From: Egicoccus sp. AB-alg2
Lineage (GTDB): Bacteria; Actinomycetota; Nitriliruptoria; Nitriliruptorales; Nitriliruptoraceae
DNA: 64,000 nucleotides
Direction of reading: 5' to 3'
Assembly (NCBI RefSeq): GCF_041821065.1
Contig: NZ_JBGUAX010000011.1
Location: 62,001-126,000, forward strand
Below the pieces are notes generated by a model. That model was not told where the DNA came from. It was given only the letters and a program-made list of their open reading frames with translations, and made no database searches. The position numbers and the translations under genes are program-made. This document shows, piece after piece, positions 1,610 through 34,067 of this stretch. The first letter of the stretch is position 1; every line of letters starts with the position of its first letter.

Positions 1610-3118
1610 TCAGCTGGCGGCCAGAACGCGGTCCTTTCCGGCATGCTTGGCCGCGTACAGCGCACGGTCGGCAGCCTGCAACAGCAGTTCCCCGTCCATC
1701 CCGACGCGCAGCTCGGCGACGCCGACGCTGGTCGTCACCTCGAGTCCGTGCGCGAGTTCCGCCCACCGGCCGTCGTCTCGCACCGCGACCCGGACGTCCT
1801 CGGCGATCCGGTGGGCCTGCACGTGGTCGCAGTCCGCGAGCACGACGACGTACTCCTCACCGCCGTAGCGGGCGCAGGCGTCGGTGGGCCGGACCGATGC
1901 CTGCAGCAGCGTGGCCACGCGCCGCAGCACCTGGTCCCCGACGGCGTGCGAGAACCGGTCGTTGACCTGCTTGAAGTCGTCGAGGTCGAGCAGCAGCAGG
2001 GCGGTCGGTCGCCCGTCGACGCGGCGCCGGACCGCCTCGTCCAACACCTGCTGCAGACCACGCCGGTTGAGCAGGCCGGTCAGCGCGTCGGTGATGCGGT
2101 CACGCTCCAGACGCTCGAGCTGGTAGCGCACCTGCAGGGCCCGCACGCGCTGCTCGGAGGCCGTGTCGAACAGGCTGCGCTCGACCTCGCGCAGGTGCCG
2201 GAGCCAGCGCAGCGCCTCCGTCGGCTTCCCGAGGTCCTCGCAGAGGTCGGCCAGCGCCTCGGCGGACTGGGCGCACTCGCGTGGTAGCCCCAGCCGCTCG
2301 GCATCACCGTGCGCCTGGAGCAGCAGGGACGTGGCGCGCCCGGGCTCGTCGGCGCCGACGAGGCGACCCAGCCGCATGCGGCTCTCCACGGCCCCGTGGA
2401 GGTGTCCCGCCCGCCCGTAGTTGCGCAGGGCCGCCTCGTAACCGCTGCGGGCGTCGGCGAGCGCGCCAGCCACCTCGTCGGCCATCGCGAGGTTGTGCTC
2501 GGTCATCGCGACGCCGCGCCACTCCCCCGCCGCGGCGAAGGCCCGGCGCGCCGTGTGCAGCAACGCCCGTGCCGCGAGGACGTCGCCCTCGGCGGTCGCG
2601 ATCTTCGCGAGGTTGTTGCGCACCCCGGCGGCGGCGACCTCGTCCTGCAGGTCCTCGTGCAACGCGAGGCAGCGTTCGTAGGCCTGACGGGCGTCGGTGA
2701 GATCGCCACGGCTGTAGAACGTCACACCGATACGGTTGAGCGTCGCGGCGGCACCGGCCAGGTCGCCCAGCTGTTCGTACAGCGCCAGGGCATCGAGGAG
2801 CCGCTCCATGCCGGTCGACACCTCACCGAGCACGCATTCGAGATAGCCGTACTCGGCCAGTGCAGGGGCGCGGTCGTCGGCCGACGCCGCCTCGTCGAGG
2901 ATCGCCACCGCCTCGAGCAACGCCCGAAGCGCCGGCATGTAGTCGTTGCGCAACGCGTGGCAGGCGCCCTCGAGCGTGAGCGCCCGGCCGCGCAGCACGT
3001 CGTCGCCGGTCGCGCTGGCCCGGTCGCGCAGCCGCTGCGCCACGTGCAACGCTGTCTGCGGATCCTGCCGTCGCCGTCGCCACGCGGTGTCGAAGTCGTC
3101 GAGTTCCTCGAAGCCCAC
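1610..3118 (-). CDS. TPR-repeat diguanylate cyclase (GGDEF)
   Basis: Predicted cytosolic diguanylate cyclase making c-di-GMP from two GTP. From the GTG at 3118 (GGGGA 4-5 nt upstream) it is 502 residues. Roughly the first 330 are helical TPR-like repeats rich in paired LxxLxxAL patterns, a likely protein-interaction sensor. The C-terminal 165 form a GGDEF domain opening with DALTGLLNRRGL and carrying the active-site motif GGEEY; RPTD five residues before it matches the RxxD inhibitory site, so the enzyme looks active and product-inhibited. It is divergent from the first polysaccharide gene and shares the 3119-3361 intergenic region with it, which holds an operator-like palindrome. A longer frame to 3214 is open but lacks a better start. 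Confidence 0.9.
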   Translation of the reverse strand: MGFEELDDFDTAWRRRRQDPQTALHVAQRLRDRASATGDDVLRGRALTLEGACHALRNDYMPALRALLEAVAILDEAASADDRAPALAEYGYLECVLGEVSTGMERLLDALALYEQLGDLAGAAATLNRIGVTFYSRGDLTDARQAYERCLALHEDLQDEVAAAGVRNNLAKIATAEGDVLAARALLHTARRAFAAAGEWRGVAMTEHNLAMADEVAGALADARSGYEAALRNYGRAGHLHGAVESRMRLGRLVGADEPGRATSLLLQAHGDAERLGLPRECAQSAEALADLCEDLGKPTEALRWLRHLREVERSLFDTASEQRVRALQVRYQLERLERDRITDALTGLLNRRGLQQVLDEAVRRRVDGRPTALLLLDLDDFKQVNDRFSHAVGDQVLRRVATLLQASVRPTDACARYGGEEYVVVLADCDHVQAHRIAEDVRVAVRDDGRWAELAHGLEVTTSVGVAELRVGMDGELLLQAADRALYAAKHAGKDRVLAAS

Positions 3119-3221
3119 TCGGTCCCCAGGTCGTGGACGTCCACTGCCCCACCCGAGTCGTCCCCGCTCGGGTACCGGTCGGGATCCTAGACGCTGACGG
3201 GCCGTGGGCGGCACGGAAGGT

Positions 3222-21508: not shown

Positions 21509-22335
21509 GACGCGACCTCCGCCCGGGCCGAGGTCGCCGCCGGCAGGTGCGACGCCACGGCGAACTCCAGGGTCGCGGCGACCGTGCGCGGGTCCACGCC
21601 GTCGTTGTCGATCTCGACCAGCCGCCACCCGCGCTGACGTGCCACGTCCACCGCCAGCGACGCGGCCCGGTGCGCGTTGACGACGAACTGCTCGAGTTCG
21701 TCGCCGTCGGCTGCTCGCAGCCGGGACCAGACGCCACGGGCACGGATCCTGGCGGTGCAGGTCTCGACTGGCGTGCGCACGGCGACGAGCAGGTCCGGGA
21801 CCGGCACCGTCGCGAGGTAGTCCTCGACGTCACGACGTGCGGGTACCTCGACGCCGGAGGCGAACAGCTGCACGACCCGGTGGACGTACCCCTCGTCGAG
21901 CACCAGCACCTCCCCCGGACGACCGTGCCGGCGGAAGTGCGCGGTCGCGGCATGCACGCGACGCAGCCAGTGCAGGACCCGTCGCGTGCCCGCGTCGGCG
22001 GCCGCTGGCCGCCCGAGCTGCGAGCGCACCGCCCGCCAGGCCAGCGGCCAGGTCGAGGGGATCGCGGCCGCGCCCGCCAGCTCCGACTGCAGCCGGTACA
22101 GCGCCCAGGCGAGCTGGCGGCTGCGCCGTCCGCTGCCCCCCGCATGCAAGCGCCGCCCGAGACGGGTCCGGGCCGCCAGCGGACGGGCCGCCTCGACCAC
22201 CGTGAACGGCGTGAGGCCGGCCTGCCGCAGGGCCGCCGCCACGACGGGCAACAGCGTGGTCTTGCCGCCCCCGGGCGGGCCGACGAACTCGACCACCAGC
22301 GGTCGGTCGTGTGGGTCCAGGCGCCGGCCGCTCAT
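21505..22335 (-). CDS. P-loop NTPase/kinase of polysaccharide cluster
   Basis: 276 residues with Walker A VGPPGGGKTTLLPVVAAAL at the N-terminus and a dNK/adenylate-kinase-like layout: LVLDEGYVHRVVQL (Walker B/lid region) and PDLLVAVRTPVETCTARIRA. ATG 22335 overlaps the sulfotransferase stop. It may be a small-molecule kinase. With its neighbours it forms a run of three kinase-like genes and one glycosyltransferase. I do not recognise a named function. Confidence 0.65.
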   Translation of the reverse strand: MSGRRLDPHDRPLVVEFVGPPGGGKTTLLPVVAAALRQAGLTPFTVVEAARPLAARTRLGRRLHAGGSGRRSRQLAWALYRLQSELAGAAAIPSTWPLAWRAVRSQLGRPAAADAGTRRVLHWLRRVHAATAHFRRHGRPGEVLVLDEGYVHRVVQLFASGVEVPARRDVEDYLATVPVPDLLVAVRTPVETCTARIRARGVWSRLRAADGDELEQFVVNAHRAASLAVDVARQRGWRLVEIDNDGVDPRTVAATLEFAVASHLPAATSARAEVAS

Positions 22336-23249
22336 CGCTCGAAGCCGTAGCCGGCGAGGAAGTCCACGTCCGCGATGGTCGCGGCGACGGCCTCGCGCGC
22401 CTCGGCCGGCCACTCGATGCGGTCGCGGTCGCGCACCGGCTCGGGTCGCAGGAGGGCCGCACAGGCGGTCAGCACGTCGGGGTGGAGCGGGAGGCCGAGG
22501 AAGGCGAACACGCCGGACAGTTCGCGTCGCGGGTCGGCGACCAGCCGCTCGTAGCGGACCGTGTGCAGGTCGCCGGGCGGGATCCGGCCGCGCAGGTCCA
22601 GCAGCCGGTGGCACTGGGCCCGGTGGTCGGCGACGGCGGCCGCCAGGGGCCGGCCGCTGCGCCGCACCATGGCCGAAATCGGCTCGTGGGGATTGCGCAC
22701 GACGTGCACGAAGGCGACGCGCACGGGGGCCAGCGCGGCCCGCAGGCCGGTCAACGCCTGCGGGTCGTCGCCGAGCACTCGCGTGGTCGGCCCGCCGCGG
22801 CTGTCCCCGACGACCTGCAGGCGGGCGTGACGCCCCTGCCACTGGCCCTCCACCGCGAGCGAGTACGGCTCGAGGCGCCGGGCGGTGACGCGGCCGTTGC
22901 CGGCCTCGCGGCGCGCGCCCCGGACCAGCAGGTGGAACACCTCGTCGCGCGTGAGCCCGGCGGCCACCTGCGCCGCGACGTCGATCTCGTCGGCGATGGC
23001 GGCGGCCGGGTGGGCGTCGATCATCGCGCCGAGGAGGGAGCCGCCGCTCTTGACGTGACCGAGGAACAGGCAGCAGGTGTGCAGGTCCGTGAAGCGAGCG
23101 GGTTCGCGGCGTGCCTCCGCCCGGGCGGCCGCGTGCCGTCGCTGGGTGAGCGCCCACCGACCGGCCGACGTGCCGACGAGCCAGCGGCCCGGACGCGACT
23201 TGACCAGCCGCCGGGGGGCGAGGCGGACGGGGCGGCCCGGGGCGCTCAC
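22332..23249 (-). CDS. Sulfotransferase family protein 2 (divergent)
   Basis: 305 residues; GTG 23249 overlaps the polymerase stop. The PAPS loop is GHVKSGGSLLGAMIDAHP and the 3'-phosphate site VRNPHEPISAMVRRSGR, both divergent from the RSGTS/RDPRDR pattern of the other copies, but order and spacing are conserved. VRYERLVADPRRELSGVFAF is a common feature of the fold. Probably sulfates a different position or residue of the polysaccharide. Confidence 0.75.
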   Translation of the reverse strand: MSAPGRPVRLAPRRLVKSRPGRWLVGTSAGRWALTQRRHAAARAEARREPARFTDLHTCCLFLGHVKSGGSLLGAMIDAHPAAAIADEIDVAAQVAAGLTRDEVFHLLVRGARREAGNGRVTARRLEPYSLAVEGQWQGRHARLQVVGDSRGGPTTRVLGDDPQALTGLRAALAPVRVAFVHVVRNPHEPISAMVRRSGRPLAAAVADHRAQCHRLLDLRGRIPPGDLHTVRYERLVADPRRELSGVFAFLGLPLHPDVLTACAALLRPEPVRDRDRIEWPAEAREAVAATIADVDFLAGYGFER

Positions 23250-24754
23250 GAGGGGCCCGCGCGCAGCAGGGGTGCCAGCGTCGGCAGCGGCGATCGGGCC
23301 ACGGCCCGGGCCAGGCGGGCACGATCGACGAGCGTCGCGATCAGCGCCAGGCTGACCCACCAGACGCCGAGCCCGAACGCGACCCGCATGTTCGCGAAGT
23401 TGGAGATGATCACGTGGCCGGCGATCACGAGCCACAGGCTCACGGCCAGGCGCCAGTCGGGGCTGCCCGCCCGCCAGATGCCGTAGCGGTGGGACTGGAC
23501 CAGGAGCCACACCGCGGGCACCACGTAGAGCAGGAAGCCCGGCAGCCCCTGTTCGGCCAGGAGCGTGAGATAGAAGTTGTGCGAGGCGTGGTCCTTGTCG
23601 GGCACGTAGAGGCGGTCGATCGGGCGCTGGAACTGGTGGTCGAAGTCGTCGAAGCGCCCGTAACCCCACCCCGTCATCGGTTTGGCCTCGAACATGCCCA
23701 GCGACGCCATCACCACCGGCAGCCGGCTGAGTGCCGACTGCTCCGAGGCGCTCGAATAGAACCGGTCCGAGACGTCGGCGGCATCGACGACCAGCACGTC
23801 GGTCTGCAGCAGCCCGATCACGGCGACGACCGCCACCGTCATCGCGACCAGCGCCGCCCGCAGATGCAGCCGGGCGACGCCGGCGAGCATCACGATCGTC
23901 GCCAACCACGCCGCGCGCGACAGCGTCAGGAAGGCCATGGCGCAGGCCACCACGAGCACCACCGACGGGAGCACGCGCCGACCGAGCCAGCCGCCCGCCC
24001 GCCCGGCGAGATGGAGACACAGCACCGCGGCGAAGAGCAGCGAGATCGCATAGACGTTGGGATGGCGCAGGGACCCGGTCGTCCGGCTCCCGGCACGGTT
24101 GAGCCAGTGGCTCGGCAGCACCTCGGGCGCCACCCAGGAGAGGATCCCGATGGCGGCCTGGCTGAGCACCAGGACGACCAGGACCAGGTACCAGGAGCGC
24201 AGGTCCTGGTCGCTTGGACGTGACAGGCGGATCACGACGTAGAGCAGCATCGGCACGACGATGCGGTCGTAGAGCAGGTAGATGTCGGCGAGCGGCTCCG
24301 GTGACGTGTAGAGCACGGAGACGACCGACGCGACGACGTAGCCGGCCATGCACAGCTCGGGCAGGCCGAGCCGTGGCAGCCGGTCCACGGCCTGCGCCAG
24401 GACGGCGCGCATCAGGATCGCCCCGACCGCCGCCAGCGGCAGGAAGCGGTGCACGAGCCAGAAGACACGGCGACCGCCCCCGCCGCCGTCGACGACCATG
24501 ACCAGCGGTGCCACCAGCAGCCACACCACGATGGCCGAGAACGGCCGCTGGTACATCAGCAACCCGATCGGGACGATCAGGGCGGCCGCCGCGGCGAGCT
24601 GGTAGTTGCCGGCCGTGACCAGCGCCGCCACCGCCGCCGCCGACAGCAGGCCGCCACCGACGAGCGCGACCAGCCCCAGCCGCGTGGGGACGCCCAGGGG
24701 CGAGCCCCCCGGCGGCGAGGCTCCCGGCGGCGCGGTCTCCTCCACGGCGCTCAT
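23246..24754 (-). CDS. O-antigen ligase / Wzy-type polymerase, multipass membrane protein
   Basis: 502 residues with about a dozen hydrophobic segments spread along the chain and a large periplasm-type loop around residues 330-400 containing GRFDDFDHQFQRP and HNFYLTLLAEQG, as in the Wzy_C/O-antigen ligase family. It would polymerise the flipped repeat units or ligate the chain to an acceptor. ATG 24754 overlaps the neighbouring sulfotransferase stop. It is the only polymerase-like gene in the window, which fits a Wzx/Wzy pathway with the flippase at 30876. Confidence 0.87.
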   Translation of the reverse strand: MSAVEETAPPGASPPGGSPLGVPTRLGLVALVGGGLLSAAAVAALVTAGNYQLAAAAALIVPIGLLMYQRPFSAIVVWLLVAPLVMVVDGGGGGRRVFWLVHRFLPLAAVGAILMRAVLAQAVDRLPRLGLPELCMAGYVVASVVSVLYTSPEPLADIYLLYDRIVVPMLLYVVIRLSRPSDQDLRSWYLVLVVLVLSQAAIGILSWVAPEVLPSHWLNRAGSRTTGSLRHPNVYAISLLFAAVLCLHLAGRAGGWLGRRVLPSVVLVVACAMAFLTLSRAAWLATIVMLAGVARLHLRAALVAMTVAVVAVIGLLQTDVLVVDAADVSDRFYSSASEQSALSRLPVVMASLGMFEAKPMTGWGYGRFDDFDHQFQRPIDRLYVPDKDHASHNFYLTLLAEQGLPGFLLYVVPAVWLLVQSHRYGIWRAGSPDWRLAVSLWLVIAGHVIISNFANMRVAFGLGVWWVSLALIATLVDRARLARAVARSPLPTLAPLLRAGPS

Positions 24755-25734
24755 CGTGCGCCGGCCTCGGGCAGCAGCCGGTAGGCGGGCAGCTTCTGGC
24801 CGGTGCGCCCGACGTAGGCCGCACGGGCACGCCAGGCCAGCAGCGCGCCGGTGTTGACGGGCCGGTCGGCGACGGAGAAGCGCAGCCGGTCATGCGGCGT
24901 CAACCGCAACGGCTCGGGCAGATACCCCATCCGCGCCATCGGCGCCGCGGCGACGCGGTCGATGAACGCGATCTGGCGGGGGCTCAGCACCTCGCGATAC
25001 CTGCCGATGGAGTCGGCCGAGATCACCCCGACCGTCCGCGGCCCGTACGAGCTGTTGCCGCCGTCGTCGCGGAAGCGGCTCGCGCCCGCCATGCCGAGCA
25101 TGCCGTCGCGGTAGGGCTCGCCGATGAAGTCGCAGATCTCGCGCAGCGTCCGCTCGGGGGCCTGCACCAGCGTCTCGTACCGGACGATGCGGTACTGCGC
25201 CGGGTAGCGCCGCTGGTGTCGCTCGCCGAGCGCCACCGACGCGAGCCACGCCGCGGTCCCGGCACCGACGTCGCCGCGGCGGGACTTCCAGCGCACCAGC
25301 ACCGAGGCGTAGCGGTCGCGCGGGTCGCGGATCATGTGCAGGATCCGGGCTCCGCGATAGGCGGCCATGATCGGATCGGCGAACCGCTCGGTGTCCAGCG
25401 ACTTGTCGCCCCAGCGCGGCTTGCCCAGTCGATCGGCCACCTGCTGCTCGACGAGCCAGAACAGCCGGGCGTAGGTCGCCTCGCCGCGCAGGAAGTCGCT
25501 GCGCAGACGCTCGCCGTCGACGTCCAGCACCGCGATGCGGCGGTAGCGCAGCAGCATCGTCAGACAGCGCTCGAGGTTGGCCGGGTCGGCGAGATCGCCG
25601 TACTGCCCGTAGAAGTAGCGCCAGAGGTTGGTGCGCCGGGTCATCGCCAGGTTCGGGTGGGAGGCCAGCAGCGCGTACAGCAGGCTGGTGCCGCTGCGTT
25701 CCTGCCCGGCGACGAACACGGGGCCCGGCTGCAT
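24751..25734 (-). CDS. PAPS-dependent sulfotransferase 3
   Basis: 327 residues; ATG 25734 follows GGAGG and comes 1 nt after the previous stop. PAPS 5' loop AGQERSGTSLLYALLASHP, 3'-phosphate site IRDPRDRYASVLVRW, and WGDKSLDTERF. Very similar in layout to the protein at 16636 (shared TRRTNLWR-YF and DxANLERCL stretches), so these two are likely recent paralogues with related acceptors. Confidence 0.88.
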   Translation of the reverse strand: MQPGPVFVAGQERSGTSLLYALLASHPNLAMTRRTNLWRYFYGQYGDLADPANLERCLTMLLRYRRIAVLDVDGERLRSDFLRGEATYARLFWLVEQQVADRLGKPRWGDKSLDTERFADPIMAAYRGARILHMIRDPRDRYASVLVRWKSRRGDVGAGTAAWLASVALGERHQRRYPAQYRIVRYETLVQAPERTLREICDFIGEPYRDGMLGMAGASRFRDDGGNSSYGPRTVGVISADSIGRYREVLSPRQIAFIDRVAAAPMARMGYLPEPLRLTPHDRLRFSVADRPVNTGALLAWRARAAYVGRTGQKLPAYRLLPEAGAR

Positions 25735-25735
25735 C

Positions 25736-26509
25736 TCACACCTCCTGCTGCGAGCGCGGGTAACCGAGGGTGTCCAGATACCGCGCCGCGAACAACGTGA
25801 CGAGTCGTGCTTCTGCGGACCCGGTGGCGGGCCCCGCCTCCGGCTTTCGCAGCCCTCCGTCGGCGCCCACTGCCAGCATCGCGGGCGCGAACGGCGCGTC
25901 CAGGAAGGCGCAGACACGGCGCAGCGTCGTCTCCCGGTCGTCACGCAGCGCCTCGAACCGCACGACCAGGTAGCGGCCCTCGAAGCGGCGCACGTTGTCG
26001 ATGGCCGCCTGCGCCGAGCGCAACCAGCGGGCCGTGGTCCGGCCCACCGCGCCGAGCCGACGTCGGCCACGACCGGCCACGACGCGGCAGTGGGACACCG
26101 GGTCCCGCACGAGGTGGACGATGCGGGCGTCGGGCAGCTGCTCGAACAGGCGCGGGGCCGCCACGTCGGCCATGCCGAACTGCTCGCCCCAGCGGCGCCT
26201 GCCGTTCGACCGCGCGTGCTGGTCGTGGACGGCGCGAAGCACCGTCGCGTACGACGCGCCGTCGGTGGCGACGGCGCGCCGAAGACCCGCCGGGTCGGGG
26301 CGCAGGCGCGCGACGGCGTCGTCGGCCAGCAGGGCGGCCAGGAGCCGCTCGAGGTTCCCCGGATCGGTGAGGTCACCGAACCGGCCGTCGAAGCGTTCCC
26401 ACAGCCGGGTGCCCCGCACCATCACGAAGTCGGGATGCGCGGACAGCATCAGCCGCAACGGGGTCTTGCCGGTGTCGGCGAGGCCGGCCAGGAACACGGG
26501 TCCACTCAC
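25736..26509 (-). CDS. Sulfotransferase-like protein 4 with altered PAPS loop
   Basis: 257 residues, clearly shorter than its neighbours. The 5'-phosphosulfate loop reads AGLADTGKTPLRLMLSAHP, replacing the RSGT-type loop with DTGKT, and the 3' site reads VRDPVSHCRVVAGRG, losing the RDPRDR arginine. The C-terminal third seen in the paralogues is missing. GTG 26509 overlaps the previous stop. It may be catalytically weak, use another nucleotide, or act as a partner of an active paralogue. Confidence 0.7.
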   Translation of the reverse strand: MSGPVFLAGLADTGKTPLRLMLSAHPDFVMVRGTRLWERFDGRFGDLTDPGNLERLLAALLADDAVARLRPDPAGLRRAVATDGASYATVLRAVHDQHARSNGRRRWGEQFGMADVAAPRLFEQLPDARIVHLVRDPVSHCRVVAGRGRRRLGAVGRTTARWLRSAQAAIDNVRRFEGRYLVVRFEALRDDRETTLRRVCAFLDAPFAPAMLAVGADGGLRKPEAGPATGSAEARLVTLFAARYLDTLGYPRSQQEV

Positions 26510-27561
26510 GGCGCCGCCACCCGGTCCGCCGGGGCACCGCCGGTCACCGCCGCGGGCAACGGTTCGTCGACGAGCATCCGGTTGCCCGGCCGCCGTGGCA
26601 CGACCCGCGGGAAGCGCTGCTGGAGCTCCTCGACCAACCGCCAGGCCGCCAGTCGTGCCAGCTGGTCGGGTTGGTCGACCAGCGCGAACCGCAGCCGCTC
26701 CGCCGGCGTCCATCCGAGGGCGTCGGCCTCGTAGCCGTACGCCTGCATGAGGGCACCGGCATGACGCTGGATGAAGGCGAGCTCGGCCTCCGGAACCCGA
26801 CCGCGGTACCGGCCCAGCTGCGTGGTGGAGAACAGGCTCGCCTGCGGGTCACCGCCACCGGCGACCATCTTGGCCACCAACGTCGGCGCCTCGCCCATCT
26901 CCAGCATGGCCGGCAGGTAACGCAGGCCGAGGAAGTCGCACACCTCGCGGACCGTCGCCTCCGGTTCCCGCACCAGGTCCTCGAAGCGCACGACGAGGTA
27001 GCGGCCCGGGTGGTCGGCCACGTGGCGGCGCGCCAGGCTGGTCGAGTAGCGCCAGCGTGCGACCGCGCCTCCGGCCCGTCCGCGCCCGTCGGGCCAGCGC
27101 GACAGCGAGGCCTCGTAGCGGTCCCGCGGGTCCCGCAACAGGTGCACGATGCGCAGGTCCGGGTAGGCGGCGAACAGTTCGTGGGCGTAACGCTCGACGA
27201 GGCCGGTCTGGGCACCCCACCGCGGCTTGCCCCGTCGCTGTGCGTAGTGGATGAGGAACAGCGCGAACAGCCGGGCGTAGCTGGGCTCGCCGGCCCGGAA
27301 CTCGCGCCGGATCCGATCGGGGTCCGGCTCGAGGTAGCGCACGTGCTTGTAGCGCAGCATCGCGGCCAGGCAACGCTCGAAGTTGGCAGGCCGGGCCAGG
27401 TCGCCGTAGCGCCGGTGGAAGTAGGTCCACATGTTGGATCCCACTCCCGGGATGGCGAGATCCGGGTGCGATGACAGGATCGCGCTCATGGTGGTCTTGC
27501 CCGAGCGGTCCAGTCCTGCGACGTAGACCGGGCCGGCCGACCGCCCGGCGGCGTCGCTCAT
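26506..27561 (-). CDS. PAPS-dependent sulfotransferase 5
   Basis: 351 residues with PAPS loop AGLDRSGKTTMSAILSSHP and 3'-phosphate site LRDPRDRYEASLSRW; the central motif is WGAQTGLVERY instead of WGDKS. C-terminal extension of about 60 residues rich in Arg and Pro. ATG 27561 overlaps the Wzz-like gene stop by 4 nt. Same operon as sulfotransferases 2-4, implying several distinct sulfation events per repeat. Confidence 0.85.
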   Translation of the reverse strand: MSDAAGRSAGPVYVAGLDRSGKTTMSAILSSHPDLAIPGVGSNMWTYFHRRYGDLARPANFERCLAAMLRYKHVRYLEPDPDRIRREFRAGEPSYARLFALFLIHYAQRRGKPRWGAQTGLVERYAHELFAAYPDLRIVHLLRDPRDRYEASLSRWPDGRGRAGGAVARWRYSTSLARRHVADHPGRYLVVRFEDLVREPEATVREVCDFLGLRYLPAMLEMGEAPTLVAKMVAGGGDPQASLFSTTQLGRYRGRVPEAELAFIQRHAGALMQAYGYEADALGWTPAERLRFALVDQPDQLARLAAWRLVEELQQRFPRVVPRRPGNRMLVDEPLPAAVTGGAPADRVAAP

Positions 27562-28760
27562 CGTCCCGCCACGGTGGTGGGCAGCCGACGGGGCACGGCG
27601 CCGTTGGGGGTGCTGCCGTCATGGCCGGCGGGCTTCGGTTCGGTGATCTCACGCAGGAAGCCGTCGAGGTCGCTCGGCAGGGGCGGCGCGGCGCGGTCCG
27701 GTCGTCCGACGATCGTGCGGCACGGGATCGGACGCTCGCCGGCTGCGCCCGGCAGACGCAGGCTCGCCAGCCATGCCGACCCGGCCCGTTCGGGAGCGAG
27801 GACCACGAACCGGCCGCCTCCGACGTGCGCGACGACGTCGGTCTCCTCGAGTTGCCGCCGCAGCATCGCGGCGGTGCGCGCCAACTGCTTGTCGGCGACC
27901 AGCCACGCCAGCCAGGCACCCGGTCCGCGCCGACGGCGAGGGACGGCGTCCACGACCGCGACGCTCACGAGGCCACCGTGGCGGTGGATCCTGGCCAGCT
28001 CCTGTCGCAGGCGGATCAGCAGGTAGTCGCCGGTGTGCGCCCCCGTGAGCGGATCGACGATGTCCATGCGGCGCGCCCCGACCAGCGGGAAGGCGATGCC
28101 GCTCACGAGCAGCAGCCCCAGGCCCAGCAGTCCACCGAGGAACGCGCTCAGCATCACGGTCAGACGCACCCGCGGGCCGACCGGCGCGGTGGGCAGCGTC
28201 GGCGGATCGAGTTCGACCAGGCCGAAGGCATTCTGCAGGTCGTCGATGTAGGCCACCGTCTCCGCAGCCACGGCCTCACCGAACGCCTGCGCGAGTTCGG
28301 GATCCTGCGCCGTGGTCCGGATCTCCACGATGTTCGTGCCAGTGACGACCTGACCGGTCGCGTCGAGCCCCTTGGGCTTGCCGTTCCCGAGATCGAGTCG
28401 CTCGAGCGCCCGGTCGGTCACGACCCGGCTGCCCACGACGTTGGCGTACGTCGTGTTGATCTCGACGCCACGGAGCAGCGTGTCCATGGCACGGACGAGC
28501 TGTTCGGCGTTGCCCTCGACCGGGCGAACGACGAAGCTGCTGACCGACTCGTAGGTCTCGGGCAGCGCGCGGACCTGGTTGTAGGCCATCAGGACCGTCG
28601 GGACCAGGCCGACCAGCAGCAGCCACCACCGGTTGCGCAAGAGCCGCAACGTGTACTGGACGCTCAGGTTGGACCCACCCGTCGGCATGGCAGCCGGCGG
28701 GACCGTCCAGGACACCGTGGGCAGCGTGCCCCGGTCGGTCGAGCCGTTCGTGTTCGTCAT
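27558..28760 (-). CDS. Wzz-type chain-length regulator fused to a degenerate GGDEF domain
   Basis: 400 residues. Residues about 30-215 are a polysaccharide co-polymerase (Wzz) domain: a membrane segment near 43-63, a periplasmic region with TYESVSSFVVRPV and the VVEIRTTAQDPELAQ-type core, and a second membrane segment near 200-225. Residues about 230-350 look like a GGDEF domain (MDIVDPLTGAHTGDYLLIRL start) whose signature has become GGGRF and whose RxxD site is lost. Bacterial Wzz proteins usually carry nothing or a tyrosine kinase here. ATG 28760 overlaps the oxidoreductase stop. Catalytic inactivity is inferred; GTP or c-di-GMP sensing is possible. Confidence 0.8.
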   Translation of the reverse strand: MTNTNGSTDRGTLPTVSWTVPPAAMPTGGSNLSVQYTLRLLRNRWWLLLVGLVPTVLMAYNQVRALPETYESVSSFVVRPVEGNAEQLVRAMDTLLRGVEINTTYANVVGSRVVTDRALERLDLGNGKPKGLDATGQVVTGTNIVEIRTTAQDPELAQAFGEAVAAETVAYIDDLQNAFGLVELDPPTLPTAPVGPRVRLTVMLSAFLGGLLGLGLLLVSGIAFPLVGARRMDIVDPLTGAHTGDYLLIRLRQELARIHRHGGLVSVAVVDAVPRRRRGPGAWLAWLVADKQLARTAAMLRRQLEETDVVAHVGGGRFVVLAPERAGSAWLASLRLPGAAGERPIPCRTIVGRPDRAAPPLPSDLDGFLREITEPKPAGHDGSTPNGAVPRRLPTTVAGR

Positions 28761-29854
28761 CCGACGTTGACCACCTCGTTACGCGCCGGGGACGGTCCCC
28801 GGTCGGGTGTGACGTTCTCGACGGCCGGGGCGGCCGCCGTTCCGACCGGGACGCTCGCGCCGCCGTTGGCCAGGGAGCGCTGCGCCGCCTCGATCGTCTC
28901 CACGACGACCAGCCCGTTGCTCGCGTCGGTACGCGGACGTGCCCCGCGCGCGACGCAGTCGGCGAAGTGGAGGCACTCCAGCCGCAACGGCTCCTCGAAC
29001 CGGATGTGCGGGATCACGACGTTGCCGTAGTGGTAGGCGAACTGGAACTCGCCGAAGGTGTCGGTCCTGCGGATCGAGTCGACCCGCTTGTCGTAGATAC
29101 GCAGCTTCTCCAGCGGCTCGACGTCGTCGTAGACCGCCATCTTCTGACTGCCGATGACGGTCGTACGCCGCGTCTTGGACGGATCGAGCCAGCTCAGCCG
29201 GACGTGGTACAGGACGTTGCCGGGGAACGTCAGCGTGAGGTAGGCGACGTCCTCGACGGTCTCGTTGAGGCAGGCGGCCCCGCGTGCCGCCACCGCGACC
29301 GGTGCCGCACCGAGCAGGAACGACGCGATGGAGATGTCGTGCGGCGCCAGGTCCCAGATGACGTTGAGGCGCGGATGGAACAGCCCCAGCCCGGCACGTA
29401 CGGCATCGATGTAGAGCACGTCCCCGAGCTCGCCGTGCACGACGAGGTCGCGCAGGGCGTGCACGGCGGGGTTGTAGAGGAACGTGTGGCCGACCATGAG
29501 GATGCGCTCGTTGCGCTCGGCGACGGCGATCAGCTCTCGTGCCTCGGCGCTGCGGGTGACCAGCGGCTTTTCCACGAGCACGTGCAGGCCGTGCTCGAGG
29601 CAGTCCCTGACGATGTCGTAGTGCGTCTCGGGCGGGGTGCTCACCACCACGGCGTCCAACCCGAGCCCGAACAGATCCCGGTAGTCGTTGGTCAGCGTCC
29701 CGATCTGCGGGTAGCGCTCCCGGACGTGGGCGAGTCGCCCGCCGTCGAGATCCGCGACGCCCAGAACACGCGTGTTCGGGATCTCGATGAAGTTGCGGAT
29801 CAGGTTGGGGCCCCAGTAGCCACAGCCGATCGCGCCGATCCTGGTCCTGGACAT
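28757..29854 (-). CDS. Gfo/Idh/MocA-family nucleotide-sugar oxidoreductase
   Basis: 365 residues: Rossmann GAIGCGYWGPNLIRNF at the N-terminus, the catalytic-lysine motif EKPLV, and WDLAPHDISIASFLLG in the substrate domain, as in WlbA-type UDP-sugar 3-dehydrogenases. It would give a 3-keto sugar that the DegT aminotransferase at 15197 could aminate. ATG 29854 has AAGGA upstream. It lies 11 nt after the initiating transferase gene. Confidence 0.87.
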   Translation of the reverse strand: MSRTRIGAIGCGYWGPNLIRNFIEIPNTRVLGVADLDGGRLAHVRERYPQIGTLTNDYRDLFGLGLDAVVVSTPPETHYDIVRDCLEHGLHVLVEKPLVTRSAEARELIAVAERNERILMVGHTFLYNPAVHALRDLVVHGELGDVLYIDAVRAGLGLFHPRLNVIWDLAPHDISIASFLLGAAPVAVAARGAACLNETVEDVAYLTLTFPGNVLYHVRLSWLDPSKTRRTTVIGSQKMAVYDDVEPLEKLRIYDKRVDSIRRTDTFGEFQFAYHYGNVVIPHIRFEEPLRLECLHFADCVARGARPRTDASNGLVVVETIEAAQRSLANGGASVPVGTAAAPAVENVTPDRGPSPARNEVVNVG

Positions 29855-29865
29855 CCTTGGTTCCT

Positions 29866-30612
29866 TCAGCCGGCGCCGCGCGCGGAGAAGGCTGCAGGCA
29901 GCGTCCGCGCGAGGATCCTGAGGTCGAGCCACAGCGAACGCCGGGCGATGTACTCGAGGTCGAGACGGACCATCTCCTCGAAGCTGGTCTCGCAGCGACC
30001 GTTCACCTGCCACCAGCCGGTCAGACCCGGTGCCGAGGCGAGCCGCTCGAAGTGCCACTCCTCGTACAGGTCCGCCTCGTAGGGCAACGGTGGCCGCGGG
30101 CCGACCAGGCTCATGTCCCCGCGCAGCACGTTGAGGATCTGCGGCAGTTCGTCGAGGCTGAACCGTCGTAGCAACCGGCCGAAGCGGGTCACGCGCGGGT
30201 CACCGACCAGCTTGTAGGAGTCGCCCTTGCCGCCGGACGGACGCAGGGCCGCCATGGCGGCCTCGTCACCGGCGAGGTAGGCCGCCATGTAGCGCCGATG
30301 CAGTTCCTCGTCGCAGGCGGTGTGCATCGTGCGGAACTTGACGATCGTGAAGGTGCGGACCTGCCAGGTCCACCCCCCGCCGGTGCGGACACGGCGGGCG
30401 CCGAGCCGCTCCTGACGGAAGAGTGCGGGTCCGGTGCTCTCCAACCGGACGCCCAGGGCGATGGCCAACAGCAGCGGCGCGAGCACCACCAGGAGCACGA
30501 GGCTCACCAGGACGTCGAACGACCGCTTCACGGCGAAGTAGGCGTCTGAGGTCACCGACCGACACGTGAGCGACCGCTCCGTGTGCGTCGGCACCGCAGG
30601 CATCACCTCCAT
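29866..30612 (-). CDS. Initiating sugar-1-phosphate transferase (bacterial sugar transferase family)
   Basis: 248 residues: one long hydrophobic membrane helix ([20 protein letters not shown]), [12 protein letters not shown], and the family signature [23 protein letters not shown] (residues about 160-182). Short PglC/RfbP-like form that loads the first sugar phosphate onto undecaprenyl phosphate. ATG 30612 follows AAGGGGG. It heads the 12-gene minus operon and is divergent from the flippase gene. It shares its role with the longer protein at 42150. Confidence 0.9.
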
Positions 30613-30718
30613 GGTTCCCCCTTTCCGGCGGCACTCGGCACCAAGTGCCCCGGCGCTCTCCCCCCGAGGCCGGCCGATGTCCCGGGTAGAGAAAACCTGT
30701 CCCTACGGTTACGGCGTA

Positions 30719-30732
30719 GTGACACATGCCCC
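30719..30732. promoter_or_regulatory. Crp-type operator candidate, site 6 (GTGACACATGCCCC)
   Basis: Centred 113 bp from the initiating transferase start and 150 bp from the flippase start. Matches the consensus at 11 of 12 positions. Confidence 0.45.
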
Positions 30733-30784
30733 GACCTGAGATGGCCTCTCTCTCAACCTGTTGATCCGCCACGCCGCCCGCGAT

Positions 30785-30798
30785 GGGACACCTGCCTC
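30785..30798. promoter_or_regulatory. Crp-type operator candidate, site 7 (GGGACACCTGCCTC)
   Basis: Centred 84 bp before the flippase TTG; 10 of 12 consensus positions. It would fall inside the gene if the ATG at 30783 were used, which argues for the later start. Confidence 0.4.
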
Positions 30799-30875
30799 TG
30801 GGGCGCCAAGCCGCCATCTCGTTCGCTGCCCCGGGGCAGACATCCCGACGCTGCCTGTCGAGGTGGAGGTACGCG

Positions 30876-32435
30876 TTGGCCGCGAGTGCCGAACCGCACG
30901 TGCTCCACGCGGCGAAGGGCATCGGCTACCTCACCGCGGGCGGCGGCGTCGGGCAGGTGGTCCGGTTCGTCACCGCGATCCTGTTGGCGCGCGCACTCGG
31001 CGCCGACGGCCTGGGTCAGTACATGCTGGCCCTGACGGTGGCCGGGCTGTGCTCGTCGCTGGCGGCGCTCGGGCTGGACGACGCGATGGTGCGCTACCTC
31101 GCGATCCAGGCCCGTGAGGGCAACCGTTCCGCCGTCGCCGGCACGCTGCAGATCGGCGTCGGCATCTCCACGCTGGTCGGCACGATCACGGGCGTCGGGC
31201 TGTTCGTGGCGGCCGGGGCCGTCGCGGACCGGGTCTTCGACGCCCCCGAGCTGGTGCCGGTGCTGCGCGCATTCGGCGTCATCGTCCCGTTCATGACCCT
31301 GAGCAACGCCTTACTCGGTGTCGCACGCGGCAGCAAGCGCATGGACGTCGCGGCGCTGGCGGAAGAGGTCGTGCAGTCGTTGGTCCGTCTGGCCCTGATC
31401 CTGCCGCTGCTGTTCCTGGGGCTGGAGCCCGTGGCCGCGGCGGTGGTGTTCGGCGTCGGTGACGTGGCGTCGAGTCTCACCATGGTCGCCCTGCTGAGGC
31501 GTCAGCTGCCGCTCCGGGCCGCCTTCGGGCGTGGGGTCCGCCGGGACGTCCGCGGCCTGGTCGGATTCGCCGGTCCATTGTGGCTCGCGGGCGCACTGCG
31601 CAAGTTTCGCCAGAACATCGAGACCCTGCTGCTGGGCTCGCTGACCGCGGTGGCCTCGGTCGGCATCTTCTCCGTGGCCGCGAAGGTCAACCTCGTCGGC
31701 CACACCGTCTACTCGGCCATCATCACGTCGGTGAAGCCGCACCTGGCGGAGCTGCACGGCAGCAGGGACCGCGAGGGGCTGCGGCACCTGTACCGCACGA
31801 CCACCCGCTGGGCACTGCTGTTCGGGCTGCCGTTCTGCCTCGTCACGGTGCTGTACGCGGAACCGATCCTGGCCGTGTTCGGCGACTCCTTCACCGCGGG
31901 GACCACGGCCCTGGTCGTGCTGGCCGCCGGCGAGCTGGTCAACGCCGCCACCGGTGTCTGTGGTTCGGTGCTCGACATGGCCCGCCGCACCGGCGCCAAG
32001 CTGGTCAACGCCGTGCTGTGGCTGGTGCTGATCCTCGGCGCCAACCTGCTGCTCATCCCGCGTTGGGGGGTGCTGGGCGCGGCCGTCGCCTCCGTGCTGG
32101 CGAGCTCGCTGATCAACGTGCTGCGGATCGTGCAGGTCTGGGTGCTGGAGCGCGTGCATCCCTACGACCGCACGTTCCTGAAGCCGGCGGCGGCCGGCGT
32201 CGGTGCGTTCGCGTTCGGCGCTGCCGTCGCCCGGGTCTGGTCGCCGGCCGACCACCCGCTCGTCCTGGCCGTGCAGGCCGGTCTGGTGGTGGCGGTGTAC
32301 GCGCTGCTGGTCGTGCTGCTTCGTCCCGAAGCCGAGGACGCGATGGTCGCCGGCCGGGTCTGGGGTCGTGTCCGCCGGCTGCCGGGACAACTCGGACGCT
32401 CGCTGCGTCCGGCGCGTGCCGCGGAGCGGGTGTGA
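30876..32435 (+). CDS. Oligosaccharide flippase (Wzx/MATE-like)
   Basis: 519 residues from the TTG at 30876, which has GGTGGAGG 6 nt upstream; an in-frame ATG at 30783 would include an operator-like site. About 13-14 hydrophobic segments and the family-typical start GIGYLTAGGGVGQVVRFVTA and FAGPLWLAGALRKFRQNIET. It should flip the undecaprenyl-linked repeat unit to the outer face. The stop is 1 nt from the convergent sulfotransferase stop at 32437. The last 25 residues are Arg-rich and cytosolic. Confidence 0.88.
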   Translation: MAASAEPHVLHAAKGIGYLTAGGGVGQVVRFVTAILLARALGADGLGQYMLALTVAGLCSSLAALGLDDAMVRYLAIQAREGNRSAVAGTLQIGVGISTLVGTITGVGLFVAAGAVADRVFDAPELVPVLRAFGVIVPFMTLSNALLGVARGSKRMDVAALAEEVVQSLVRLALILPLLFLGLEPVAAAVVFGVGDVASSLTMVALLRRQLPLRAAFGRGVRRDVRGLVGFAGPLWLAGALRKFRQNIETLLLGSLTAVASVGIFSVAAKVNLVGHTVYSAIITSVKPHLAELHGSRDREGLRHLYRTTTRWALLFGLPFCLVTVLYAEPILAVFGDSFTAGTTALVVLAAGELVNAATGVCGSVLDMARRTGAKLVNAVLWLVLILGANLLLIPRWGVLGAAVASVLASSLINVLRIVQVWVLERVHPYDRTFLKPAAAGVGAFAFGAAVARVWSPADHPLVLAVQAGLVVAVYALLVVLLRPEAEDAMVAGRVWGRVRRLPGQLGRSLRPARAAERV

Positions 32436-32436
32436 G

Positions 32437-33414
32437 TCACCGCGGCCGCAGCTTCGCCCGCGCCGGGAGGCGGGTGCGCAAGGACCAGGCCAGCATCCCG
32501 GCACCGTGACGGGGGACCTCGGCCAGCGCGAACCGCAACCCACGCACGCGGTCCTGGCCCTTCTCGCCAGTTGGATAGCCGAGCCGGTCAGCCCATGGCC
32601 GGGTCGCGAGCTCCAGGAAGGCGACCTCGCTGGGCTCGAGGTCACGCCGGAACCGGCCGACGGAGCGGTCGTGCAGCGGACCCGGCCCGGCGGCGTCGGC
32701 CTCTGCCGCAGCCAGCGTGGTGGCCGCGGTCGAGGCCGGTTCGCCGAGGAAGGTCACGACCTCGTGCAGCACGCTCGCTGGGTCGCGGACCAGCCGCTCG
32801 TAGTGGACGACGAGGTACCGCTCCGGGTACCGGATCGCGTTGTGGACCGCTCGGCGGGCCGAGTCGCGCCACATCGCCGCGCCGGCGCCCAGCCCGCCGC
32901 GGCCGAGCCCCCGGTGGTACTTCTGGGACGCGAACCGGTCCCGCGGGTCGCGGAGCACCTGGACCATGCGCGCCTCGGGATAGGCGCCCAGGATCTGGTC
33001 CGCGTGGCGCTCGTTGCCGAGGGACTTGTCACCCCACCGGGCACGATCGAGCCGGGCCGCCCGCTGCTCCTGCAGCATGGCGAACAGCCGCACGTAGCTG
33101 GCTTCGTCGCCGGCCAGATCGCGGTCGAGCCGCTGGCGGTCCGGTGTCAGCAGCCGGAGCCGCCGGTCCGCGGCGATTTCGTCCAGGAGCCGGTCGAGGT
33201 TCGGGCGGTGGCGTAGGTCCCCGTACCGGCCCACGACCCGGGTCCAGTAGTCGGTGCGGCGCGTGAGGGCGAACGACGGGTGGTGTTCCAGCAGTTCGCC
33301 GAGCAGCCCGATCCCGCTGCGGTCGGCACCGGCGAGGAAGACCGGACCGCGGCCGGGCGGCGGAGTGCCGGCTGCCGGCCTTGGCTCCGCGGTGGTGTCG
33401 TCCGTGGTGCTCAC
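32437..33414 (-). CDS. PAPS-dependent sulfotransferase 6
   Basis: 325 residues with PAPS loop AGADRSGIGLLGELLEHHP, 3'-phosphate site LRDPRDRFASQKYHRG and WGDKSLGNERH. GTG 33414 overlaps the previous stop as GTGA; a second GTG at 33420 is equally in frame. It is last in a three-gene minus operon behind an APS-kinase-like gene and a giant secreted protein, outside the long operon but of the same family as the other five. Confidence 0.86.
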   Translation of the reverse strand: MSTTDDTTAEPRPAAGTPPPGRGPVFLAGADRSGIGLLGELLEHHPSFALTRRTDYWTRVVGRYGDLRHRPNLDRLLDEIAADRRLRLLTPDRQRLDRDLAGDEASYVRLFAMLQEQRAARLDRARWGDKSLGNERHADQILGAYPEARMVQVLRDPRDRFASQKYHRGLGRGGLGAGAAMWRDSARRAVHNAIRYPERYLVVHYERLVRDPASVLHEVVTFLGEPASTAATTLAAAEADAAGPGPLHDRSVGRFRRDLEPSEVAFLELATRPWADRLGYPTGEKGQDRVRGLRFALAEVPRHGAGMLAWSLRTRLPARAKLRPR

Positions 33415-34067
33415 GCCCACGGCGTTCGCGGGAGATTTCCGCTGGGCAGCAGGCCCCGCGCACGCAGGGCCGCGAGGACGGCCTCTGCACCGACATCGGG
33501 CGCGGTCCGCGAGGTGTCGATCCGGACGTCCGGTGCGTCCGGCGGCTCGTAGGCCAGACCCCGCTTCGCGCCGACGAAGCGGGCGACGCGCTGGCGCAGC
33601 TCGCGGGCGCGGCGACGGAGCGGCACCCGGCGACCACGCGCTGCCCGGCGGGCGGCGGCCACCTCGGCAGGCACGTCGACGTGGACCTCCACGAACCGGT
33701 CGGCACCGACGACCTCGCGTGCCCGCTCGCGCACCTCACGCCGGGCACTGACGGTGACGCAGATCGCGATGCCGCCGTGCCGCGCGATCTCGCCGGCGAC
33801 GAAGGCCTTGCGCAACAGCTTGCCCTCGCTGCTCCGTTCACCCGGCGCCTTGGCCAACAGCGGCACGACGTCGAGCACGCTCACCGTCCGGCCGAGTACT
33901 TCGAGGCGCGGCACCAGCGCGGCCGTGAGCGTCGACTTGCCGGCACCGCTGGGACCCGTCAGCCAGATGCAGGCACCGGCGCGGGACGGCGCGGTGTGGT
34001 CGTGCGCGGCAGTCGCCGCCGTTTCCTCGCCCGCCGCTGGCTGGCCGGCTGCCACCGTCTGCTCCAT
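33411..34067 (-). CDS. APS-kinase-like protein (divergent CysC)
   Basis: 218 residues with P-loop GPSGAGKSTLTAALVPRL and the CysC-type run FVAGEIARHGGIAICVTVSA and FVEVHVDVPAEVAAARRAAR. The DGDxxRxxL substrate motif seen intact in the fused enzyme at 4618 is replaced by SVLDVVPLLAKAPGER, and RDPKGLY is absent. It may be an APS kinase with altered specificity or a kinase for another substrate. ATG 34067 follows AGGAGG. The first 35 residues are a low-complexity tail. It directly precedes a sulfotransferase gene, supporting a sulfation role. Confidence 0.75.
   Translation of the reverse strand: MEQTVAAGQPAAGEETAATAAHDHTAPSRAGACIWLTGPSGAGKSTLTAALVPRLEVLGRTVSVLDVVPLLAKAPGERSSEGKLLRKAFVAGEIARHGGIAICVTVSARREVRERAREVVGADRFVEVHVDVPAEVAAARRAARGRRVPLRRRARELRQRVARFVGAKRGLAYEPPDAPDVRIDTSRTAPDVGAEAVLAALRARGLLPSGNLPRTPWA

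Follow-up and report, generated by a model that had tools for sequence, protein, structure and literature searches.

A Wzz-type co-polymerase joined to a degenerate GGDEF-fold domain in an exopolysaccharide locus of Egicoccus sp. AB-alg2

Introduction

In the synthesis of cellulose, alginate and Pel, c-di-GMP is established as a direct, post-translational regulator (PMC8461298). PelD and BcsE contain dead GGDEF domains that bind c-di-GMP (PMC8461298, PMC7439463): in PelD the binding is carried by R367, D370 and R402 (PMC8461298), and in BcsE it is lost upon mutation of the I-site, although the mutant still binds BcsQ, which amounts to c-di-GMP-independent docking by a dead GGDEF domain (PMC7439463). 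In Wzc, control is exerted differently: autophosphorylation of the cytosolic part governs assembly of the octamer (PMC8285477). Wzz and Wzy are nowhere mentioned in the review PMC8461298, and a search of the open-licence literature returned no description of a fusion between Wzz and GGDEF.

Here we describe such a fusion from a little-known actinobacterium: a membrane protein that would determine how long a secreted sugar polymer grows has, in the place of the kinase or short tail of its relatives, a defunct version of the domain that produces c-di-GMP. The gene lies in a 64,000-nucleotide stretch of the Egicoccus sp. AB-alg2 genome (the window). Like PelD and BcsE, its product has a dead GGDEF-fold domain that serves an exopolysaccharide machine; however, PelD and BcsE keep the RxxD I-site, bind c-di-GMP and are not Wzz-type co-polymerases, whereas the window protein lacks the arginine (EETD). 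RxxD is present in a second fusion, from Leptolinea, described below. Like co-polymerases of the Wzc and CpsCD type, the window protein is a two-helix membrane protein with a cytosolic domain behind helix 2, but those proteins carry a BY-kinase and neither this protein nor its locus has one. An architecture of this kind, found in two phyla, offers a compact test of whether Wzx/Wzy assembly is wired to the c-di-GMP network, and of what stands in for the tyrosine kinase in kinase-less co-polymerases.

Results

The reading frame and its co-polymerase half

An earlier note, made from the letters of this DNA, had described a frame encoding a chain-length regulator that continues into a degenerate GGDEF domain. 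The frame is present as described (Table 1), and profile matches, fold and the intact frame agree that a co-polymerase is joined to a degenerate GGDEF-fold domain. Third-position GC is 0.91 in the first half of the frame and 0.87 in the second, similar to that of the neighboring genes, and both ends of the gene share an ATGA overlap with the adjoining genes, upstream and downstream, a pattern typical of a translationally coupled operon. Given the high third-position GC in both halves and the overlaps, translation very probably runs on through the C-terminal half of the protein. Codon-position GC led us to reject the possibility that this half is a non-coding tail, an antisense gene or a read-through artefact; a frameshifted, otherwise normal GGDEF gene was rejected because the missing GGDEF part is absent from all other frames. 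A scan of the fusion-gene region for promoters and terminators found none.

Table 1. Features of the fusion gene and its locus (positions in the window).
Feature	Position	Strand	Basis or remark
Wzz/PCP-type co-polymerase with degenerate GGDEF-fold domain, whole gene (P0001)	27558..28760	-	400 aa, ATG start
First transmembrane helix, ~residues 44-62	28575..28631	-	hydrophobic stretch by eye; helix 30-65 in single-sequence model
Extracytoplasmic co-polymerase domain, residues 63-198	28167..28574	-	profile matches, identity to syntenic protein, weak structural matches
Second transmembrane helix, ~residues 199-227	28080..28166	-	hydrophobic stretch by eye; helix 195-230 in single-sequence model
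Degenerate GGDEF-fold domain, ~residues 231-376	27633..28070	-	profile, PDB sequence, AlphaFold, Foldseek, VIA-align
I-site position EETD, residues 305-308 (RxxD expected)	27837..27848	-	alignment
Signature position GGGRF, residues 314-318 (GG(D/E)EF expected)	27807..27821	-	sequence and alignment
Gfo/Idh/MocA oxidoreductase	28757..30058	-	overlaps fusion-gene start codon by ATGA; 65% identical to neighbor in syntenic locus
Initiating sugar transferase (Bac_transf)	29866..30612	-	profile match
Wzx-type flippase (Polysacc_synt)	30783..32435	+	profile match
Sulfotransferase	26506..27561	-	overlaps fusion-gene stop codon by ATGA
Sulfotransferase	25736..26713	-	
ORF with further sulfotransferase in C-terminal part (residues 219-424)	24751..26376	-	
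Wzy/O-antigen-ligase-type polymerase (Wzy_C)	23246..24754	-	
Sulfotransferase	32437..33420	-	
APS kinase (step to sulfate donor PAPS)	33411..34067	-	

The co-polymerase part spans residues ~30-228. Its profile matches all fall below the respective cut-offs: TIGR01006 at E=4e-7 (under the cut-off of that subfamily), PF02706 at 17.3 bits (E=0.006; cut-off 25.5 bits) and GNVR at 16.1 bits (E=0.011; under the curated cut-off). Sequence and model nevertheless agree on the layout of a PCP protein, with an extracytoplasmic domain that lies between two membrane helices and closes in a Pro-rich motif, PPTLPTAPVGP, just ahead of the second, and the locus supplies the context, encoding both Wzx and Wzy. 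When the single-sequence model of the whole chain was compared to the PDB, the first matches were to KpsE, with Wzc also found, at weak E-values of 0.003-0.03. Beyond the sub-cut-off profiles, then, the assignment draws on the helix and Pro-rich layout, on 38% identity to a syntenic protein and collinearity with the Leptolinea fusion (both below), and on the KpsE and Wzc matches; together these make the N-terminal half a well supported co-polymerase, which would presumably act as such.

The GGDEF-fold half

On single-sequence searches the C-terminal half matches NCBIfam diguanylate cyclases (E=1e-7), TIGR00254 (E=1e-5) and, among PDB sequences, DgcR 6zxm (E=4e-6); against PF00990 it scores 22.4 bits, 1.4 below the cut-off of 23.8. 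These E-values are independent support for the GGDEF fold. AlphaFold, run on the full protein from its single sequence, gave pLDDT below 50 over this half and is uninformative there. Residues 220-400 were therefore modelled with an alignment of 22 GGDEF domains from related genomes, which placed the core at pLDDT above 90 with helices and strands in the expected order as far as the signature. The final third is shortened and poorly predicted (pLDDT below 60 in places). All 50 of the 50 Foldseek matches listed for this model are GGDEF structures, as are all VIA-align matches listed (Z up to 12.8). Because the alignment rows were picked according to the hypothesis they favor that fold, and the model lends it support without being a blind test. 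The earlier note had proposed that a structure prediction unlike GGDEF would overturn its reading; the AlphaFold, Foldseek and VIA-align results leave that reading standing.

To define what the domain has lost, we used 40 hallmark positions, at each of which one residue occurs in at least 80% of 22 comparison GGDEF domains; their roles we take to be those assigned after the PleD structure. The window domain retains 21 of the 40, compared to 29-40 of 40-41 in every one of the comparison domains. Kept are the D-x-L-T opening, the first metal Asp (D271), D290, D308, the GG pair and the core hydrophobics. The residues lost are the N (T243), the second Asp (V273), F-K (R275, R276), N-D (G279, P280), G-H (A285, W286), a G (A289), the I-site Arg (E305), an R (H312) and the signature acid (R317). 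Losses are concentrated at nucleotide positions and the core is retained. The GGGRF signature reported in the earlier note is confirmed. Its claim that RxxD is missing holds for the arginine, which is replaced by glutamate, but not for the whole site, since the aspartate (D308) and the aligned second I-site arginine (R335) persist.

Judged by its residues, the domain is ruled out as a diguanylate cyclase, both by the GGGRF signature and by the lost GTP-site residues. Canonical binding of either GTP or c-di-GMP is, on the same grounds, unlikely: with the substrate residues (K, N, second D, G-H, signature E) and the I-site Arg absent, the earlier suggestion that the window protein senses GTP or c-di-GMP directly finds no support.

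The locus

Besides the genes in Table 1, the locus has glycosyltransferases and a DegT aminotransferase, and its initiating sugar transferases number two. Within this one exopolysaccharide locus (window 22332-34067) an APS kinase accompanies five sulfotransferase domains. Together with Wzx, Wzy and the transferases, these make a sulfated Wzx/Wzy polymer the likely product. A profile search found no kinase domain within P0001, which in this respect is not of the Wzc type, and contig C11, which holds the window, is free of AAA_31/BY-kinase matches; a separate Wzc-like gene lies on contig C10 of the same genome. Elsewhere in the genome, 14 GGDEF domain matches exceed the Pfam cut-off, so that the organism probably makes c-di-GMP. 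A TPR-GGDEF protein with a 134.7-bit GGDEF match is encoded ~24 kb from the fusion gene (window 1610-3214, reverse strand).

Relatives and the survey of co-polymerases

The Nitriliruptorales bacterium Ww637 (a metagenome-assembled genome of the same class) has a syntenic locus, in which sulfotransferases, Wzy, Gfo/Idh and Bac_transf genes follow the same order with overlapping gene ends. Its co-polymerase (262 aa; L046:8559-9347) is 38% identical to the window protein over the co-polymerase part and passes the GNVR cut-off (28.4 versus 27.7), but ends in a short basic tail and has no GGDEF domain. This locus shows that the GGDEF domain has been added to a co-polymerase that is complete without it. 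Across 66 genomes of the class there is no close match besides that in the Ww637 locus; the idea that close relatives share the fusion was rejected (0 of 66), and a fusion of the window type is known from one draft genome.

A survey of 396 Actinomycetota genomes, together with the class search, yielded 118 distinct co-polymerase ORFs. By their tails, 49 are short, 54 are kinase-type (with a Walker-motif pattern), 14 have other long tails and just one, that of the window, is a GGDEF fusion. By eye, 12 of the 14 other long tails resemble the kinase type, and the remaining two are PAS-PAS. With a two-domain profile, only the window protein spans both halves among the candidates scored in the Actinomycetota sample, at most four per genome. 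A search of genome contigs with P0001 found no relative, a search of the same kind of contigs with the co-polymerase alignment found the Nitriliruptorales record only, and no relative of the fusion was found among viral contigs.

A second fusion in Leptolinea

The single plasmid match to the window protein is BCY19478.1 of Leptolinea sp. HRD-7 (Chloroflexota), a 383-aa protein annotated 'hypothetical protein' (L171:2887-4038, that is, AP024711.1 46526-47677). It is a second Wzz fusion to a degenerate GGDEF domain: PF02706 (37.8 bits) and PF00990 (50.7 bits) both match above cut-off, and its BLASTP alignment with the window protein (86 bits, 26% identity, residues 32-382) is collinear across both domains. 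The two share the spacing from helix 2 to the GGDEF domain, a dead signature (DKTQL in Leptolinea) and a Wzx/Wzy locus, here with WbaP. They differ in that BCY19478.1 keeps RxxD and the second I-site Arg but has lost the two Asps that the window domain keeps.

The GGDEF halves of the two fusions align locally with a score of 60, compared to 88-146 for the window domain against ordinary GGDEF domains. The halves thus show no special kinship, which favors separate origins over common descent, though only tentatively, as both domains evolve fast and both have T in place of N at position 243. A second fusion in an unrelated phylum points to repeated use of this wiring. By its residues, the Leptolinea domain plausibly is a c-di-GMP receptor of the PelD/BcsE type, and its full R..D..R set makes a link to c-di-GMP plausible for the architecture as such. 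Downstream of BCY19478.1, beside the Wzx/Wzy locus, lie two BcsB-like (cellulose synthase subunit) genes (L172:11923-16400 of AP024711.1), none of whose neighbors is annotated as a cellulose synthase.

Discussion

What might the GGDEF-fold domain do? We place about even confidence in a kinase-less co-polymerase of a Wzx/Wzy pathway, probably for a sulfated exopolysaccharide, in which the domain is a docking or oligomerisation module. The outer part would act as Wzz and Wzc do, oligomerising around or beside Wzy and setting the amount or chain length of the polymer. The GGDEF-fold domain, unable by its sequence to make c-di-GMP, occupies the place that the tyrosine kinase has in Wzc, directly after helix 2, and would serve as a protein-protein module that joins subunits, recruits a partner from the cytosol (candidates are a sulfotransferase, an initiating transferase or a further GGDEF protein), or both; it may thereby take over the control of ring assembly exerted elsewhere by the kinase. 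Since both nucleotide sites are lost by sequence and the core is kept, we take a structural or docking role to be likelier than any other, and BcsE sets the precedent, its dead GGDEF domain docking BcsQ independently of c-di-GMP (PMC7439463).

The same precedents can be turned to a different account, in which a modified I-site still lets the domain act as a receptor and tie the level of c-di-GMP to polymer length, much as PelD and BcsE do for their own polymers. PelD and BcsE are dead GGDEF domains that do bind the nucleotide (PMC8461298, PMC7439463), the genome probably makes it, D308 and R335 are retained, and the Leptolinea domain has the R, D and second R of the I-site despite its DKTQL signature. 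Yet the first I-site Arg is Glu in the window domain, and binding in PelD depends on R367, D370 and R402 just as the BcsE I-site mutant loses it (PMC8461298, PMC7439463), which leaves a receptor unlikely here. We give the same low credence to the notion of a vestige: the co-polymerase would have picked up a GGDEF tail by chance, and the tail would now be drifting, needing only to leave the rest of the protein undisturbed. Presence in one genome, absence from close relatives and the shortened, badly predicted last third are what a vestige would leave; an intact frame with codon usage matching that of the neighbors, losses that look non-random (nucleotide positions gone, core retained) and a fusion of the same layout in another phylum are not. 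Some degenerate GGDEF domains bind GTP, and the window domain keeps the acidic site residues D271 and D290, so that it might sense GTP (or ppGpp) at the former active site without cyclising it; with N (G279), K (R276), F (R275), the second D (V273), G-H (A285-W286) and the signature acid (R317) gone, this is very improbable.

A broader possibility is that fusion to a dead GGDEF domain is a recurrent, independently invented means by which a second messenger, or the enzymes of c-di-GMP, could directly control Wzx/Wzy polymer assembly. We advance this tentatively, as doubtful: if true, the layer of control seen for cellulose, alginate and Pel would extend to Wzz proteins, for which we found none described.

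Degenerate GGDEF domains in two phyla and PAS-PAS tails in one group suggest that co-polymerases lacking a kinase have acquired cytosolic domains of the signalling type on repeated occasions. The two PAS-PAS proteins of Actinomycetota (L139:121-2178 in G135 and L160:386-2200 in G114) combine Wzz with two PAS domains and a coiled coil; like the window protein they are co-polymerases in which a sensory-type cytosolic domain replaces the kinase, but that domain is PAS with a coiled coil and not GGDEF.
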